Source: an uncultured Bacilli bacterium (GTDB taxonomy: Bacteria; Bacillota_I; Bacilli_A; RF39; UBA660). Taken from it: DNA of 32,632 nucleotides. A program made the position numbers and the translations under genes. Under the pieces are notes generated by a model, which was not told the origin of the DNA, searched no databases, and saw nothing but the letters and a program-made list of their open reading frames with translations. Where the stretch lies: NCBI GenBank assembly GCA_944359885.1, contig CALVTC010000011.1, forward strand, positions 1 to 32,632. The letters run 5' to 3'. Shown one piece after another: positions 6,169-12,999 of this stretch (position 1 is its first letter; each line of letters begins with the position of its first letter).

Positions 6169-6243
6169 TGCCCTATAGCCAAGCGGTAAGGCAGTGCGCT
6201 CTGACCGCACGATGCGTTAGTTCGAATCTAACTAGGGCAACCA
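6169..6243 (+). tRNA. tRNA-Gln (anticodon CTG)
   Basis: A complete cloverleaf: acceptor TGCCCTA/TAGGGCA, D arm GCC-AAGCGGTAA-GGC, anticodon stem GTGCG/CGCAC with loop CTCTGAC (anticodon CTG, reading CAG), and T arm GTTAG-TTCGAAT-CTAAC. Discriminator A is followed by an encoded CCA at 6241-6243. The U1-A72 pair fits tRNA-Gln. Its 3' end is the likely phage attachment site, with the integrase gene 58 bases away. Confidence 0.95.
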
Positions 6244-6252
6244 AATAAAAAT

Positions 6253-6276
6253 AACCCTTGATTTTTCAAGGGTTTT
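6253..6276 (+). terminator. Terminator of the tRNA-Gln gene
   Basis: AACCCTTGA (6253-6261) pairs with TCAAGGGTT (6266-6274), loop TTTT, followed by TTTAT. It lies 9 bases after the encoded CCA. Confidence 0.8.
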
Positions 6277-6294
6277 TATGTGTAATAAAGATTC

Positions 6295-6316
6295 TACCTC
6301 TTATTTACCTCTTATT
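6295..6316. repeat. Tandem 11-bp repeat at the integrase 3' end
   Basis: TACCTCTTATT occurs twice, back to back (6295-6305 and 6306-6316), across the integrase stop codon. It is a candidate arm-type binding site for the integrase or a short duplication at the junction. Confidence 0.6.
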
Positions 6317-7431
6317 TTAAGGCTATTTAAAAGTTTAACTGTTTCTTTTTTCTTAGTTGGAAACATATGATAATAAGTCTTTTCAACCATCTGAATAGTG
6401 TCGCCTATGCGTTCGGCCACATCTCTACTATCACATCCTAAATTAATCAATAAACTTACGTGAGAGTGACGAAAACCGTGTGGTGTAATTTTTTTTACAT
6501 CAGCTAATTCGATATATTTATACAAATATCTTTTTATTGTTGTTGGTGAAACGTGTGTAATGTTTCCAAAAATAAACATTTCTTTATTAAAATTATAAAT
6601 TCTCTTTTCTTCTTCATAATACTTTTTCATTAGAGATAATAAAGCGTCATCTAAATCTACATATCTAACAGAATTGCTGGTTTTAGGGGTTGTTATTTTA
6701 TACGAGCAATCTAACACTTTATTGGTAAAAGTTTTATTGATTCGAATTTGCTTTCTGTCAAAGTTTATATCATCCCAAGTTAACGCAATCATTTCTCCTA
6801 ATCGTAGACCAGTGTAATATAAAAAGTTAAAAATAAGATAATAAAATTTATTATCGACTGCGGAAATAAATTTAGAAAATTCTTCAAAAGTCCAAAAATT
6901 AATTTCAGCATTAGTTTTATCAACAACATTTTCAACTTTATAGAATTGTATTTTACTAACTATTTTTATATCGTATTCATAATTATCTCTAGCATAAATC
7001 AATATTTCTTTTAAAGTTCTTATGAGTGTGTTTTTATGACCAGTGGTAATATTAAGACTAAATATTTTATCCTTCCACTGGTTGATTGTATTCATTTTTA
7101 TAGAATGTAATCTGTATTTTTTAAAGTAGGGTAAAATATGATACTCGCATCTTTTTACTACACTATAAAAAGTAGTTGATTTAACCTGTGATTGTTTAAA
7201 AAGCAACCATTCTCTATATACGTCAATAAATAATATATTGCTATTTATTTCATCTGTTGTTTTTATTTTTGATAAAAACTCTATTTCTGCATCTTTTGCT
7301 TCTAGTTTAGTTTTGTATAGCTTACTTTCTTTTTGTTTTCTGTTTCCATACAAATCCTTATAATAGCATCTAAAATAATATGATCTTCCGTCTTTAGTCC
7401 ATTCTTGTTTTTCTTTTCTATAAACTGGCAT
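6301..7431 (-). CDS. int: Phage tyrosine integrase
   Basis: This 376-residue site-specific recombinase inserts and removes the prophage at the tRNA. Residues 1-60 are a basic arm-binding domain (YYFRCYYKDLYGNRKQKES), 65-160 the core-binding SAM-like domain, and 175-365 the catalytic domain. Visible catalytic residues are R210 (YTGLRLGEM), K250 (TTPKTSN), H318 and R321 (HGFRHSH) and Y353 (KTYYHMFP). The usual second His of the LGH motif appears replaced (RIGDT). It is read toward the tRNA, the standard layout. Its start lies 4 bases after a possible 21-codon leader, and an antisense RNA gene covers its 5' leader region. Confidence 0.95.
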   Translation of the reverse strand: MPVYRKEKQEWTKDGRSYYFRCYYKDLYGNRKQKESKLYKTKLEAKDAEIEFLSKIKTTDEINSNILFIDVYREWLLFKQSQVKSTTFYSVVKRCEYHILPYFKKYRLHSIKMNTINQWKDKIFSLNITTGHKNTLIRTLKEILIYARDNYEYDIKIVSKIQFYKVENVVDKTNAEINFWTFEEFSKFISAVDNKFYYLIFNFLYYTGLRLGEMIALTWDDINFDRKQIRINKTFTNKVLDCSYKITTPKTSNSVRYVDLDDALLSLMKKYYEEEKRIYNFNKEMFIFGNITHVSPTTIKRYLYKYIELADVKKITPHGFRHSHVSLLINLGCDSRDVAERIGDTIQMVEKTYYHMFPTKKKETVKLLNSLKIRGK

Positions 7432-7435
7432 TATA

Positions 7436-7501
7436 TCAACCTCTTTCCCCTTGATTTATGTGCAAAAGATTGATATAATTAAAAAGAAAATTGCAAAGCA
7501 T
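7436..7501 (-). CDS. Possible 21-residue leader peptide before the integrase
   Basis: An ATG at 7501 on the minus strand follows AAAGGATTGATATA, the same ribosome binding context as the 9611 gene, and opens 21 codons ending in TGA four bases before the integrase ATG. The spacing suggests translational coupling to int. Its codons are A/T-rich and the product (MLCNFLFNYINLLH) resembles nothing known, so it could be chance. It is entirely antisense to the small RNA region. Confidence 0.3.
   Translation of the reverse strand: MLCNFLFNYINLLHINQGERG
7451..7479 (+). promoter_or_regulatory. Strong orphan promoter for a small RNA
   Basis: TTGATT (7451-7456), a 17-bp spacer and TATAAT (7474-7479) with an extended TG one base upstream of the -10. 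No plausible protein starts downstream on this strand before the terminator at 7570. Transcription would begin near 7486, running against the integrase leader. Confidence 0.65.
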
Positions 7502-7530
7502 TATATCAATCCTTTATGTTTGGTATTTTG

Positions 7531-7555
7531 TTCACAGTCTTGGTCGACTTTTTGT
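7531..7555 (-). repeat. Inverted copy of a 25-bp element (copy 1)
   Basis: Read on the minus strand this is the 25-bp element that recurs at 9574-9598 on the plus strand, 23 of 25 identical; its core is GTCGACCAAGACT. It lies inside the candidate small RNA. Confidence 0.8.
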
Positions 7556-7569
7556 AATTTTCAAATTTT

Positions 7570-7599
7570 GATCTCGTGTTACCGCACGGGGTCTTTTTT
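7570..7599 (+). terminator. Terminator of the candidate small RNA
   Basis: GATCTCGTG (7570-7578) pairs with CACGGGGTC (7585-7593), nine pairs including two G-U, loop TTACCG, then six Ts. The opposite strand has no U-run, so it works only on plus-strand transcripts. Confidence 0.8.
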
Positions 7600-7643
7600 A
7601 TTTTCAATTTGTAAAATTAACTATATTTTTAAAATTTAAGTTA

Positions 7644-8396
7644 TTATTTATTTTCATTTTTATATTTTATAGTCACTTTAATTCCATATGATAAACTATC
7701 ATTTACTCTGACTCTTTCTTTTAGAGCATCATCGTCAAAATAAATTTCTTTAAATTTACCACCAGAAAATTCGGAGTAAATTTCTTCTGTATTATCATTT
7801 AATATTTTTAATACGTCATTTATTTCACTTTTAGGAACATAGCCTATATGATAATAATTGTCGTTATAATCGCTAATGTATACTTTGATAGCAGTTTCGC
7901 CATTATATTTAGTGATTTCAAGTTTAGTCCTTTTTATATATTGACCTGAAACCCAAAATTGCTCCTCAATGTACATTTCCAACATTTCTTTATTTGTTAT
8001 ATCATTATAAGGTGTTAAGTAACCTAAATCAATTCCTTCTAAAGCTATATTTTTGATAATTTTTTGGCGATTTTTTCTGGTTTTTTCATCCTCAAAAGTT
8101 GTACCAGAAACGTTGAATTGATAAATATTAAAATTGTTTTTTATAATTTTATTATTAGCTGATTCTTCGTCTTTTCCTGCTGGCTTTTCTATATGTATAT
8201 TATTAGAAATATTATTTTTAATTTTCTTCTCGATACTTTCCTTGGTATCTAAAAAACAATCGACGCTTGTGATACCTCCAGCTTTTTTCATACAGCTAGG
8301 ACATATCCAACAATTACTTTTAATTATTTTCCGTCGATTAAGTCCTACTTGTTTTCCACAAAAAGCACATGTGGTTCTTAAGTTAAAAAAGTTCAT
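7644..8396 (-). CDS. Zinc-ribbon (DUF4428-like) protein of the lysogeny module
   Basis: The 250-residue protein begins with a Cys4 ribbon, CAFCGKQVGLNRRK then CWICPSC, of the kind seen in DUF4428 proteins of Firmicute prophages. A polar linker follows (about 45-95). The C-terminal half (about 115-225) includes QFWVSGQY, NGETAIKVYISDYNDN and YHIGYVPKSEI, which faintly resembles a HIRAN-type DNA-binding domain. Role unknown; position next to the repressor suggests a lysogeny-expressed accessory gene, for example host protection. GGAGGAATATTTTT precedes the ATG. It is probably transcribed with the repressor upstream and possibly the integrase downstream. Confidence 0.6.
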   Translation of the reverse strand: MNFFNLRTTCAFCGKQVGLNRRKIIKSNCWICPSCMKKAGGITSVDCFLDTKESIEKKIKNNISNNIHIEKPAGKDEESANNKIIKNNFNIYQFNVSGTTFEDEKTRKNRQKIIKNIALEGIDLGYLTPYNDITNKEMLEMYIEEQFWVSGQYIKRTKLEITKYNGETAIKVYISDYNDNYYHIGYVPKSEINDVLKILNDNTEEIYSEFSGGKFKEIYFDDDALKERVRVNDSLSYGIKVTIKYKNENK

Positions 8397-8446
8397 AAAA
8401 ATATTCCTCCATTTTCTATATTAAAAATACCTGTACTAGCATATTT

Positions 8447-8785
8447 TTAATCACTCTTTTCACTAATTCTTTTTTTTAAAATAAATTTTATTGTATCTTT
8501 ATCATCTTCTGTAAGTAGAGCTTTAGCTTCTCTATATAGTTTTTCTAAATCATCATTGTCATCTTTTATTTTTGATAAATCTTGATTCACTAATTGATCT
8601 ATTGTGTAGTGAAGATAATTTGCAATTTTAATTAAATCAGGAGTCATGATAGTTCTTTCTCCAGTTTTCCACATTGAAATTAGTCCTGGGCTAGTGTGTC
8701 CTGTTATTTTTAACAATGAATCAGCACTTATTATTTTATGATCTAATAGATAACATATATTTTTTGATAGTAAATTATCGGACAT
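8447..8785 (-). CDS. CI-like phage repressor (HTH_XRE)
   Basis: I choose the ATG at 8785 because AGGAGGAATAA precedes it and the promoter lies just upstream; a longer open frame runs through the operators and is not coding. The 112-residue product has a helix-turn-helix at about residues 18-62 (SADSLLKITGHTSPGLISMW, then PDLIKIANYLHYTIDQL) and a short acidic/basic helical tail instead of a cleavable LexA-like domain. It is therefore a short repressor that cannot self-cleave; induction must use another route. It probably binds the two operators at 8839-8888, shutting off the early promoter. Confidence 0.8.
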   Translation of the reverse strand: MSDNLLSKNICYLLDHKIISADSLLKITGHTSPGLISMWKTGERTIMTPDLIKIANYLHYTIDQLVNQDLSKIKDDNDDLEKLYREAKALLTEDDKDTIKFILKKRISEKSD

Positions 8786-8804
8786 ATTTATTCCTCCTAG
8801 CCAT

Positions 8805-8833
8805 ATTATATTACACTTTTTTCTTTTAATCAA
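8805..8833 (-). promoter_or_regulatory. Repressor promoter
   Basis: Minus strand: TTGATT (8833-8828), 17-bp spacer, TATAAT (8810-8805). The repressor start follows about 20 bases downstream. Operator 1 starts 5 bp upstream of its -35, a position that could allow self-activation or repression. Confidence 0.8.
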
Positions 8834-8838
8834 TGTAA

Positions 8839-8861
8839 TTTTTTCACAAAAAGTGAAAAAA
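8839..8861. promoter_or_regulatory. Operator 1 of the lysis/lysogeny switch
   Basis: A perfect inverted repeat, TTTTTTCAC-AAAAA-GTGAAAAAA, lies between the two divergent promoters. Its half-site TTCAC recurs in operator 2. The centres of the two sites are 30 bp apart, about three helical turns. Confidence 0.7.
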
Positions 8862-8865
8862 GTTA

Positions 8866-8894
8866 TTGACTTTTTACTCATAGTGAAATATACT
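8866..8894 (+). promoter_or_regulatory. Early (Cro-side) promoter
   Basis: TTGACT (8866-8871), 17-bp spacer, TATACT (8889-8894): near-consensus. Operator 2 occupies the spacer, so repressor binding would exclude polymerase. Confidence 0.85.
8873..8888. promoter_or_regulatory. Operator 2, inside the early promoter
   Basis: TTTAC-TCATA-GTGAA has the same half-sites and 5-base centre as operator 1 with one mismatch, and sits wholly between the -35 and -10 of the early promoter. Confidence 0.65.
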
Positions 8895-8916
8895 TGTATT
8901 GTAAGGAGAGAAATAA

Positions 8917-9165
8917 ATGGAAACAAATGAACAACAAGTAATAAGAAATATAAAATCTACTCGCAATCGTTATGGTAAAACTCAAGAACAAGTTGCTGCA
9001 GTAGCTAATATGACATCTAGAACTTATAAGTCGATAGAAAATCATCCCTTTTCTTACTCGATTGATAAGTTAAATATCATTGCTAAAGCAATTGGATGTA
9101 ACTTAGACGAATTTTTTTTACCTCTTAATTTCACTGAAAGTGAACAAACTGTTAGTAATAAATAA
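8917..9165 (+). CDS. Cro-like HTH_XRE regulator
   Basis: An 82-residue DNA-binding protein and the first gene of the early transcript. The helix-turn-helix spans about residues 8-64: TRNRYGKTQEQVAAVANMTS, then YKSIENHPFSYSIDKLNIIA and GCNLDEFF, the standard XRE layout. It is divergent from the repressor and likely competes for the same operators to favour lytic growth. AAGGAGAG is 6 bases before the ATG. Confidence 0.8.
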   Translation: METNEQQVIRNIKSTRNRYGKTQEQVAAVANMTSRTYKSIENHPFSYSIDKLNIIAKAIGCNLDEFFLPLNFTESEQTVSNK

Positions 9166-9203
9166 ATTAGATAGTTATATAAGACTGTGAAAGGGATGAT
9201 ATT

Positions 9204-9338
9204 ATGAAAAAAATTAAAGTAACTAAAAAAATGTTAAAACAAGCTTTGTTAGAGAGAATTTACAATATTATAACTGGACCAACTAAATTAACTACAGAGG
9301 ATATAGAAGCTTTAAAAATTTTACTAAAAAAAGACTAG
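9204..9338 (+). CDS. Small early protein (44 residues)
   Basis: A short basic, helical protein (MKKIKVTKKMLKQALLERIY...) downstream of the Cro-like gene in the same direction. The leader AAGACTGTGAAAGGGATGATATT is a variant of the leader of the 9611 gene, and part of it (9181-9191) is a perfect 11-base complement of the candidate small RNA. It may therefore be under the same control. I do not recognise a family; an excisionase or anti-repressor role would be speculation. A weak TAGATA/TATCTA hairpin follows its stop. Confidence 0.55.
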   Translation: MKKIKVTKKMLKQALLERIYNIITGPTKLTTEDIEALKILLKKD

Positions 9339-9374
9339 ATAGTGTCAGTATCTAATCTTATATTGCTATTTCGG

Positions 9375-9521
9375 TTATTTAGAATGTGAGTCTTTTAATT
9401 GCATTGTTATTTCATCAATGGCCTTCTTAATAGCTTCTAGTTGTTCACTATCATCTGCATATTGCTTGATATAGCCATTATTCAACATAGCAATAACAAT
9501 TTCTGTAGCTTTGTCTATCAA
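9375..9521 (-). CDS. Small minus-strand protein with TTG start (48 residues)
   Basis: On the minus strand AAGGAGGTG sits ahead of a TTG at 9521 that opens 48 codons: (M)IDKATEIVIAMLNNGY, ending LKDSHSK. It is amphipathic and acidic, and probably folds into helices. It is convergent with the 9204 gene and opposes the early transcript. Its ribosome binding site is part of a perfect CTCCTT-AGA-AAGGAG hairpin, so translation may be low unless something opens it. A TATACT -10-like box lies about 15 bases upstream of the hairpin. Reminiscent of small phage proteins of unknown function. Confidence 0.55.
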   Translation of the reverse strand: MIDKATEIVIAMLNNGYIKQYADDSEQLEAIKKAIDEITMQLKDSHSK

Positions 9522-9573
9522 AATAACACCTCCTTTCTAAGGAGAGTATATCAAAGATTTATAAAAAACAAAA

Positions 9574-9598
9574 ACAAAGAGTCGACCAAGACTATGAA
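9574..9598 (+). repeat. 25-bp element (copy 2) in the 9611 leader
   Basis: This copy, core GTCGACCAAGACT, matches the minus strand of 7531-7555 at 23 of 25 positions. It directly precedes the ribosome binding site of the 9611 gene. Confidence 0.8.
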
Positions 9599-9610
9599 AG
9601 GATTGATATT

Positions 9611-9817
9611 ATGAAAAAATTAAAATTAAGGAAATGGGTTAAAGTTGCTATAGCTATTATTTTGTTAGTTATTATTGCAATTATTTTAACTCATTTTATT
9701 TTAACTTCAATTAATGGTTTTAATGAGGGTTCTATCCAATGTGATCAAATCAAAGGTAGCACTTGTAGTTATTACGAAGTTCAAAAACTTATAAAAACAG
9801 GTGGTTACAATGGCTAG
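9611..9817 (+). CDS. Small single-pass membrane protein, putative antisense-RNA target
   Basis: A 68-residue protein: basic N-terminus (MKKLKLRKWVK), one strong membrane segment (about residues 12-34) and a polar tail with two cysteines (SIQCDQIKGSTCSYY). It has GAAAGGATT 8 bases before the ATG, and this whole leader is complementary to the candidate RNA at 7486-7599. A short hydrophobic protein held down by an antisense RNA resembles type I toxin design, but the tail is longer than in typical toxins. Its end overlaps the next gene, so silencing it could also reduce translation of the following early genes. Function unknown. Confidence 0.7.
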   Translation: MKKLKLRKWVKVAIAIILLVIIAIILTHFILTSINGFNEGSIQCDQIKGSTCSYYEVQKLIKTGGYNG

Positions 9818-10073
9818 TCAATTACTAGCAGATGAACTTATTGAAGTTTTATCTTGTCAATGGGCTGGAAATAAAGAGATTATGAAAATCATTGGTTGTG
9901 GAACTAATACCGCAATTAAGGTTAGAAGAGAAATTGAAAATTCTGTTAGAAAGATAAATCCAAATTGCAGACTTCCATCAAAGAAAGTTCCGATGCAGGA
10001 AGTTATTACTTATTTCGGAATCGATTTAAAACGACTCGAAAAGATGGCAATTTTGAATAAAAAAATTAAATAA
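9810..10073 (+). CDS. Small helix-turn-helix-like early protein
   Basis: I prefer the ATG at 9810 (AGGTGG six bases upstream) over the GTG at 9801, giving 87 residues. The stretch GNKEIMKIIGCGTNTAIKVR followed by LPSKKVPMQEVITYFGIDL resembles small winged-helix or excisionase-like phage proteins that sit ahead of replication genes. It likely binds DNA; the target is not visible. It overlaps the end of the membrane protein gene by 8 bases and is followed, 40 bases on, by the replisome organizer. Confidence 0.65.
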   Translation: MASQLLADELIEVLSCQWAGNKEIMKIIGCGTNTAIKVRREIENSVRKINPNCRLPSKKVPMQEVITYFGIDLKRLEKMAILNKKIK

Positions 10074-10113
10074 GAGGGGAAACGGTTGGAATAAAGAAGA
10101 AAGTGAGGTTATT

Positions 10114-10941
10114 ATGCTTGAACCGTGTTATTTTTCAGTCTTACCGTCAAAAGTAAGGTACGATGATTCTTTATGTCCAAACGAAAAATTATTATTTAGT
10201 GAGATTAGCAGTCTTTGCAACAAAAGCGGTTATTGCTTTGCAAATAACGAATATTTCGCAAAGCTATACAAGGTACATAAAAACACTGTATCAAAGTGGA
10301 TATCTCACTTAAAGCAAAAGAAATATATTAAATTGTTTTTCACATATAAAGATAATTCTAAAGCAATTGAAAAAAGAATTTTAACAGTTGGTGAAGCAGC
10401 TTTTAGTCCAGACATAAATGACAATTTATTTGAAGATGATCCAAACGATATTTTAGAAGAAGAACAGATATCAGATGACGAATCAGTTGAATTTATAGAA
10501 GAGCATCAATCTGATGAAGAGGTTGATGAAAAAAATTGTCCTACCCCTAAACGAAAAGCTGAATACCCCCTAAACGAAAAGCTGAAGGATAATAATATAA
10601 AGTTTAATAATAGTAATATAGATAGAAGTATATATACGGATTTTGAAAAAAAATTTAAAACACCACTTACACCACTTACAAAAAACTTAATGGATCAATT
10701 TTTATTAATTTATCCAAAGGAAGTTATTACGTATGCTATGGATATTGCTATTAAAAATGGAGTTCCTAAAATTTCTTATGTTGCAGGAATTATTAGCAAT
10801 TGGAAAAAAGACAACTATGAAACATTAGATGACATAATAAGAGGTAGTCCAAAAATTCCAGATTTTACAGAAGAAGAGTTAAAAAAGCTGGATGAAATTT
10901 TAAGTTGGAATTGGTTTGAAGATGATGAGGAAGGAGGATGA
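10114..10941 (+). CDS. Replisome organizer / replication initiation protein (HTH_36 plus DnaB_2-like)
   Basis: The 275-residue protein starts the phage's replication by binding its origin and recruiting helicase-loading proteins. Residues 1-95 are a winged helix of the HTH_36 type (LPSKVRYDDSLCPNEKLLFS, then YFAKLYKVHKNTVSKWISHL). Residues 100-175 are acidic and unstructured. Residues about 175-245 look like the DnaD/DnaB_2 C-terminal domain (EVITYAMDIAIKNGVPKISYVAGIISNWKK is split over this region). As in many Firmicute phages, the origin appears to lie within the gene (repeats at 10544-10586). GTGAGGTTATT precedes the ATG. Confidence 0.8.
   Translation: MLEPCYFSVLPSKVRYDDSLCPNEKLLFSEISSLCNKSGYCFANNEYFAKLYKVHKNTVSKWISHLKQKKYIKLFFTYKDNSKAIEKRILTVGEAAFSPDINDNLFEDDPNDILEEEQISDDESVEFIEEHQSDEEVDEKNCPTPKRKAEYPLNEKLKDNNIKFNNSNIDRSIYTDFEKKFKTPLTPLTKNLMDQFLLIYPKEVITYAMDIAIKNGVPKISYVAGIISNWKKDNYETLDDIIRGSPKIPDFTEEELKKLDEILSWNWFEDDEEGG
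10544..10640. other. Candidate phage replication origin with two 20-bp iterons
   Basis: CCCCTAAACGAAAAGCTGAA occurs exactly twice, at 10544-10563 and 10567-10586, a 23-bp step. Because 23 is not a multiple of three, the two copies encode different peptides (TPKRKAE and PLNEKLK), so selection acted on DNA and not on protein. An A/T-only-like stretch follows at 10587-10640 (ATAATATAAAGTTTAATAAT and onward), a fitting unwinding region. This lies inside the replisome organizer gene, the usual place for such origins. Confidence 0.6.
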
Positions 10942-11290: not shown

Positions 11291-11548
11291 ATGGAGATTA
11301 CAAGTGTTAGTGTAAAAAAAGTTGAAAAAGAAGATTCAAGAGTGAAAGGAATTGTAACCATTGTACTAGATGACCAATTCGTAGTACATGATATTCGCAT
11401 TATTGAGGGGGATAACGGTTTATTTATTGCTATGCCTAGTCGAAAGACGGCAATTGGTGGATACCGTGATATTGCTCATCCTATAACTCCTGCAGCTAGA
11501 AATATGATTGAAAAAGCAATTCTAGATGCATATAAAGAGGGTAAATAA
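11291..11548 (+). CDS. spoVG: SpoVG family protein
   Basis: The 85-residue protein is a full-length SpoVG: MEITSVSVKKVEKEDSRVKG, then IVLDDQFVVHDIRIIEG, GLFIAMPSRKT and HPITPAARNMIEKAIL. Bacterial SpoVG is a nucleic-acid-binding regulator that affects sporulation, division, capsule and virulence genes. A copy inside a phage early operon may act on phage DNA or RNA, or mimic the host regulator. AAGAGGGATAAGTAT precedes the ATG, and the coiled-coil gene follows two bases after the stop. Confidence 0.9.
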   Translation: MEITSVSVKKVEKEDSRVKGIVTIVLDDQFVVHDIRIIEGDNGLFIAMPSRKTAIGGYRDIAHPITPAARNMIEKAILDAYKEGK

Positions 11549-12384: not shown

Positions 12385-12999
12385 ATGAGATACTATAAAG
12401 TTAATTACGGTAGAAAAACTGTAAGACCATTTAAATTGGAAGATGCAAAAAACATCATGATTATGTTGCAAAAAAAACGCGATGCAACTGATAATGATAG
12501 ACTTAAGAAAATATACGATAGAGACTGGTTAATGTTTAAATTGGGACTTAATACTGCATTTAGAATAGAAGATCTATTACAAATTAAAGTAGATGATTTG
12601 CTACTTAAAGGGACTATGTATACCAGAGAAAATAAGACTAAAAAAGAGCAAAACTGGGAGCTTAATCAAAAACTACATAAAGAAGTATTAGATTATATTG
12701 AAAGAAACAATTTATATGAGGGAGAGTATCTATTCAAGTCTAATGTTAGTGTTAACAAGCCAATGACTAGACAAAATGCCAGGTTAAGAATAAAAAAATA
12801 TGCTGATGAAATTGGAGTTAAATATTTAGTTAGTTGTCATTCTTTGAGAAAATGCTTTGCTCGAACATTTTACGAGCAAACAAAAGATTTAATAACTCTT
12901 CAGAGAATGTTAAATCATGCGACTCCACAAGTGACATTAATTTATATTTGCTGGGACGATGATGACCAGCAGAAATCAAGAAAAGAATTTTATTTGTAA
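12385..12999 (+). CDS. Small tyrosine recombinase in the early region
   Basis: A 204-residue catalytic-core-only tyrosine recombinase, distinct from the integrase. It shows R60 (LNTAFRIEDLL), a basic K84/K87 hairpin (ENKTKKEQ), H152 and R155 (CHSLRKCF), H178 (LNHATPQ) and Y187 (LIYICW), the complete catalytic set in order. The N-terminal core-binding domain is nearly missing, as in the compact recombinases found in early operons of many Firmicute phages. Possible roles are resolving genome multimers or acting at a local site; the inverted repeats at 12067-12104 are candidates. Confidence 0.85.
   Translation: MRYYKVNYGRKTVRPFKLEDAKNIMIMLQKKRDATDNDRLKKIYDRDWLMFKLGLNTAFRIEDLLQIKVDDLLLKGTMYTRENKTKKEQNWELNQKLHKEVLDYIERNNLYEGEYLFKSNVSVNKPMTRQNARLRIKKYADEIGVKYLVSCHSLRKCFARTFYEQTKDLITLQRMLNHATPQVTLIYICWDDDDQQKSRKEFYL

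Follow-up and report, generated by a model that had tools for sequence, protein, structure and literature searches.

The prophage in the window analysed here (32,632 nt of DNA from an uncultured Bacilli bacterium) raises the question of why a short stretch beside its integrase gene int recurs, as a near-perfect complement, in the leader of a small early gene. An initial annotation of this DNA had proposed an antisense small RNA pairing with the ribosome-binding region of that early gene, a proposal supported by the comparison with related loci presented below. The best explanation as a whole is, with high probability, an int-adjacent antisense RNA that holds down a pair of genes, one excisionase-like and one encoding a membrane protein, in the lysogen. 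The predicted RNA unit sits between int and the lysogeny genes, where the following features were located:

6301-7431, minus strand: int, tyrosine recombinase (Pfam Phage_integrase, E 4e-24)
7451-7479, plus strand: predicted promoter of the antisense RNA, TTGATT-17-TATAAT with extended -10 (TG), 10/12 in the consensus scan
7486-7599, plus strand: predicted antisense RNA of about 114 nt (deduced start) with P1, P2, the antisense stem-loop P3 and a terminator
7498-7509, minus strand: possible but uncertain facing int promoter, extended -10 TTGATATAAT with a weak -35
7503-7515, plus strand: block 1, coinciding with the TTGATATAAT promoter element in inverted orientation and pairing at 13/13 positions in the window only
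7531-7555, plus strand: antisense stretch (block 2), P3 stem-loop 7536-7549 with the loop UUGGUC at 7540-7545
7570-7599, plus strand: intrinsic terminator from the scan, 10-bp stem 7570-7593 followed by T6, loop conserved in relatives

Both the promoter with its extended -10 and the terminator with T6, noticed already in the initial annotation, were recovered by the scan, and -10-like boxes are also present at the corresponding place in relatives. The RNA 7486-7599 has a predicted folding energy of -33.7 kcal/mol (z -5.7 versus shuffled sequence). Its architecture recurs across the relatives and consists of P1 (5' end paired with the middle), sometimes P2, the antisense stem-loop and the terminator; for L028 and L041, where the automatic RNA start was too late, the fuller fold was taken from separate folding. 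The sequence of P1 varies by type, e.g. GAAAAAC/GUUUUUC versus GUACACA/UGUGUAC. Searches of Rfam with the window RNA and five relatives gave no match at gathering score, and the family is undescribed in the open-licence papers searched. Around the predicted RNA start, 7464-7515 forms an inverted repeat of the TTGATATAAT promoter element with 16-nt arms (94%), which could represent facing promoters or an operator.

The complementary sites lie in the early operon, which is organised as follows:

8447-8785, minus strand: repressor-like HTH gene (weak HTH_3 match and position)
8917-9165, plus strand: cro-like HTH gene, first of the early operon (Pfam HTH_3, E 2e-8)
9181-9203, plus strand: second possible target, the duplicated leader of gene 9204 (near-copy and cofold binding)
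9204-9338, plus strand: 44-aa gene downstream of the second leader (open reading frame)
9574-9598, plus strand: block 2 target site in the 9611 leader, hairpin 9580-9593 with the loop GACCAA at 9584-9589
9597-9609, plus strand: block 1 target, ribosome-binding region of 9611 (inverted-repeat search)
9611-9817, plus strand: gene for a 68-aa single-span membrane protein, the presumed direct target (homologue with the same leader arrangement in L019)
9810-10073, plus strand: 87-aa excisionase-like gene with its start codon inside 9611 (presumed coupling); relatives with matches to phrog_989 and weak ones to the model of the ICEBs1 excisionase

Block 2 pairs 7531-7555 with 9574-9598 over 25 nt, comprising 23 Watson-Crick pairs, one G-U pair and one mismatch, in agreement with the near-full complementarity and the pair counts reported before. 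No inverted repeat in the 3.7-kb region 6800-10500 ranks higher. Its 18-nt core occurs in the window only at 7531-7548 (minus strand) and 9581-9598 (plus strand), with 0.01 copies expected by chance, and the block 2 score was reached by none of 300 shuffles of the window RNA. Block 1 (7503-7515 with 9597-9609) pairs in the window at all 13 positions as had been claimed, but this match is not kept in the relatives L019 and L064: as read from the sequence, L019 keeps TTGATAT and a few neighbours, and L064 has fewer pairs. The leader of gene 9204, overlooked before, could be another target. The stretch 9181-9206 nearly duplicates 9588-9613 and offers 11/11 pairs with RNA positions 7531-7541; cofolding of the window RNA gave a binding energy of -25.5 kcal/mol with the 9611 leader and -8.0 kcal/mol with the 9204 leader.

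A DNA search of related genomes yielded L019 on another contig (C64) of the window's own genome, carrying the RNA at 78% identity and a homologue of the 9611 protein. Both RNA and leader are changed there and still pair over 27 nt. L020, from a third genome (G003), has an RNA with a similar end but a different core, TTTTAGTTGGTAGCTAA, and two complement copies 1.5-2.3 kb downstream. Further loci were found with the conserved terminator loop as a search handle on viral contigs and genomes; those from the genome collection come mostly from records titled as uncultured Bacilli MAGs, and in one case simply as 'bacterium'. Among them, L057 (contig C25) is a third RNA copy in the window's own genome, so that three such prophages occur in one genome. 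The relatives carry an RNA of identical architecture at the corresponding place, complementary to the early leader of their own phage just after cro, with paired sequences that are mostly unrelated between phages. Divergence of the two loci in related prophages with loss of complementarity had been named beforehand as a refutation of the proposal; both loci do diverge, but complementarity is retained.

In a reverse search, viral contigs were searched at protein level with the excisionase-like gene and then for the complement of its leader, using no terminator pattern. This recovered the RNA in L060 (13 nt in the apical stem-loop), in L062/L063 (a 17-nt match within a promoter-hairpin-terminator unit whose terminator is unrelated) and in L064 (23 nt). 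Two loci count against the best explanation: in L061 the target gene was present and no RNA was found by the reverse search, and for the RNA of L042 the complementarity search gave no target. The terminator sequence had no match in annotated phages. L025, which looks like a chance terminator match, was discarded as a family member.

In a swap test, the ungapped complementarity of each RNA to the 4.5 kb downstream was compared between its own and other loci. The test covered 12 loci found by terminator or RNA similarity only, not by complementarity, and left out the window. The sum of own matches was reached by 0 of 200,000 permutations (z 6.8), and the other strand of the same regions gave z 2.0. 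Computed over long regions, duplex energies gave noisy values in which the GC-rich L027 predominated; the ungapped complementarity score was used instead. Restricted to leaders, the test gave z 10.4 for 15 loci, three of which had been found through complementarity, and the own leader was best for 13 RNAs. The exceptions concern two columns: the L041 RNA is also a fit for the leaders of L056 and L028, and L057 has its core in common with L020. When 8 RNAs were cofolded with 8 leaders, the cognate pair ranked first in every row and column.

Covariation was counted on three sequences only (window, L019 and L064), with leaders preceding similar membrane-protein genes. The RNA loops read UUGGUC, UUGACC and CUGUCA and the leader loops GACCAA, GGUCAA and UGACAG, respectively, flanked by nearly constant stem arms. 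Across 23 pairs in the three sequences 97% of cells pair, and five pairs are changed on both sides, i.e. compensatory. The covariation score was 0.41 in register and 0.03-0.12 when slid by 1-3 columns. On this sequence comparison compensatory change keeps only block 2, and block 1 was dropped for lack of conservation. Usually a stem-loop contains the antisense stretch, an arrangement suggestive of loop-loop contact. A YUNR motif, considered for the RNA loops, fails in L064 as read from the sequence.

These results also bear on the idea that integrase, excisionase or repressor bind the repeats as DNA and that the match is one between protein-binding sites. Inverted repeats beside int and an xis-like gene would be a natural place for such sites. 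However, the sequence differs between loci while the match is retained, promoter, stable fold and terminator surround the repeat, and the excess is confined to one strand; the chance that this idea is right appears close to negligible.

Kissing-loop antisense RNAs, as in plasmid copy control and hok/sok, recognise their partners through complementary hairpin loops, and paired loop mutations shift their specificity. Many of them are encoded opposite their target, whereas the window RNA and its putative target are separate loci. For the window, the comparison supports the RNA architecture, the conserved one-to-one complementarity and the place of the target; transcription, translational block, loop-loop start, coupling and the roles in excision and immunity are what we infer. 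The RNA 7486-7599 would be a trans-acting antisense regulator transcribed from its own promoter next to int. The P3 loop UUGGUC would first contact the GACCAA loop of the small hairpin in the early mRNA leader, after which the duplex would grow to about 25 bp next to the 9611 ribosome binding site. Translation of 9611 would be blocked, that of the excisionase-like 9810 too via the overlapping start codon, and that of 9204 more weakly. In the lysogen this may add a second layer of control under the repressor, keeping leaky expression of the excisionase-like gene and of its membrane partner in check, and against an incoming phage with the same address the RNA would confer immunity.

The same pairing might have another outcome: transcription of the early operon could be terminated prematurely, or its mRNA could be cut by RNase III. 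The site lies between cro and the remaining early operon, and L020 and L057 have it about 50-65 nt ahead of the start codon, a distance that simple occlusion would not bridge. There is also a precedent in the P4 CI RNA, an immunity-type antisense RNA on an early-operon leader that acts by termination (PMC4825925). This RNA is processed from the leader it acts on, whereas the window RNA is predicted to be a separate gene. Against termination or cleavage, the site ends close to the ribosome binding site in most relatives and reaches the first codons in L055, and a plus-strand terminator scan of 6900-10200 found none after the target site. We regard this outcome as rather unlikely, though of some weight, and translational block as the preferred reading.

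Which genes would be controlled was judged from the target side. In most loci a protein of 67-94 aa, excisionase-like or of DNA-binding type, is encoded at the site, and a gene for a small hydrophobic protein usually comes next. This order is reversed in the window, L019 and L064, where the membrane gene precedes the excisionase-like one; in the window the two frames overlap. The gene downstream of the site in L020 and L057 encodes 33 aa and is not excisionase-like. Four of nine target-side proteins matched phrog_989, and four matched the ICEBs1 excisionase model NF047858 weakly (best 22.3 bits, E 8e-5, at a cut-off of 100), so the target-side proteins may be at most distant relatives of the ICEBs1 excisionase. 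For the window 9810 protein no Pfam, PHROG or NCBIfam family was matched, and comparison of its predicted fold (pLDDT 79.5) with the PDB yielded no convincing match. Weak tblastn matches occur in Staphylococcus pseudintermedius phages, some annotated as xis, beside an antirepressor gene. No close relatives of the 9611 protein were found in IMG/VR, and none of the L024 excisionase-like protein in annotated phages. The excisionase-like proteins of the relatives are very divergent, with 17-31% identity to the window 9810 protein.

The basic, hydrophobic 68-aa protein encoded by 9611, together with the small membrane protein gene near the site in most loci, would also fit a type I toxin-antitoxin system, in which the membrane protein is the toxin, the RNA is the antitoxin and loss of the prophage kills the cell. 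Yet the first gene at the site encodes a DNA-binding-type protein in most loci, and the genes belong to the early operon under cro. A membrane-peptide gene as putative direct target is present in the window, L019 and L064, not in most relatives. We consider a toxin-antitoxin function distinctly improbable. The unit under control would rather be the pair of excisionase-like and small membrane-protein genes, with the membrane gene as direct first target only in the window type. Excision would then be the likeliest route of control.

Alternatively, the RNA, or transcription from its promoter, might silence int in the lysogen by antisense action or promoter collision, the leader pairing being secondary. 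The members are int-adjacent, and a facing extended -10 is present in the window, L019 and L064. In Streptococcus pyogenes prophages, dRNA-seq detected transcripts upstream of int (SP119_SR034, SR071, SR086 and SR106), and the authors propose int silencing for such int-adjacent RNAs (PMC6431027). These have in common with the window RNA the position upstream of int on the opposite strand. The initial annotation had called the window RNA the exact antisense of the int leader, which is true of the DNA strand; as a claim on RNA it is unsupported by conservation. The minus-strand extended -10 (7500-7505) lies inside the RNA gene and is not general among relatives, and an int mRNA from this box would start near 7493, giving an overlap of perhaps about 8 nt. 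Moreover, int silencing leaves unexplained the complementarity to a distant leader, kept despite sequence change. We therefore judge silencing of int as the main function unlikely, and control of excision via the xis-like gene, itself presumed, as better supported.

Seven Streptococcus phage records (L065-L071) have by eye the layout of a promoter-like element, hairpin and terminator upstream of int, e.g. L066:1141-1270, and probably correspond to the S. pyogenes int-adjacent sRNA family. Their loops are similar between phages, not hypervariable, and a search for early targets of the seven units gave none beyond shuffles.

The c4 RNA of phages P1 and P7, named as a precedent in the initial annotation, is a short structured RNA with complementary stretches in loops, which pairs around an early-operon ribosome binding site; its specificity differs between phages and sets heteroimmunity (PMC12197685, PMC5320573). 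Judged by complementarity and covariation, the window RNA would likewise pair around such a site. In contrast to c4, which arises by processing of a longer transcript of the same operon and acts on an antirepressor mRNA, the window RNA has its own predicted promoter and terminator at int, and the putative targets of its family are small membrane or excisionase-like genes. The Rfam C4 covariance model gave no match up to E 5 in 7400-7700. On the sequence evidence the window RNA would work like c4 but is not a C4 member: the similar logic of the precedent stands, and the RNA was not filed as C4 because there is no model match, the gene is separate and the target is different.

To our knowledge, antisense RNAs acting as immunity or lysogeny switches are known mainly from proteobacterial phages. 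The loci described here constitute a comparative case, with covariation evidence, for an antisense switch in Firmicutes phages, located at int and directed against an excisionase-like gene; if this is true, control of recombination direction would be tied to an RNA. The case also suggests a target logic for the int-adjacent sRNAs from S. pyogenes prophage transcriptomics. A sequence that changes while its match is retained would be expected of an 'address' private to each virus, and the natural loop changes are ready-made specificity variants. Tentatively, and with a little less than even confidence, we propose that in Bacilli temperate phages the excisionase-like gene cassette is gated by a family of int-encoded RNAs whose loop addresses change fast, that a private pair in each phage locks excision and sets heteroimmunity, and that a polylysogen runs several such pairs side by side.

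The GC-rich viral contig L027 is doubtful as a family member, since its context differs. At L027:2860-2973 (minus strand numbering) it carries a stable hairpin RNA-like unit with the shared terminator loop, and a 35-nt complementary match lies 1.3 kb downstream, near an HTH gene; possibly another lineage follows this logic too.

The early region of the window prophage further contains a SpoVG-family gene (11291-11548, Pfam E 4e-34) and, besides int, a second, shorter tyrosine recombinase gene (12385-12999, 204 aa). On the far side of int, in 6169-6301, about 60 bases separate the end of a tRNA gene from the end of int, which makes this tRNA gene a likely attachment site of the prophage.
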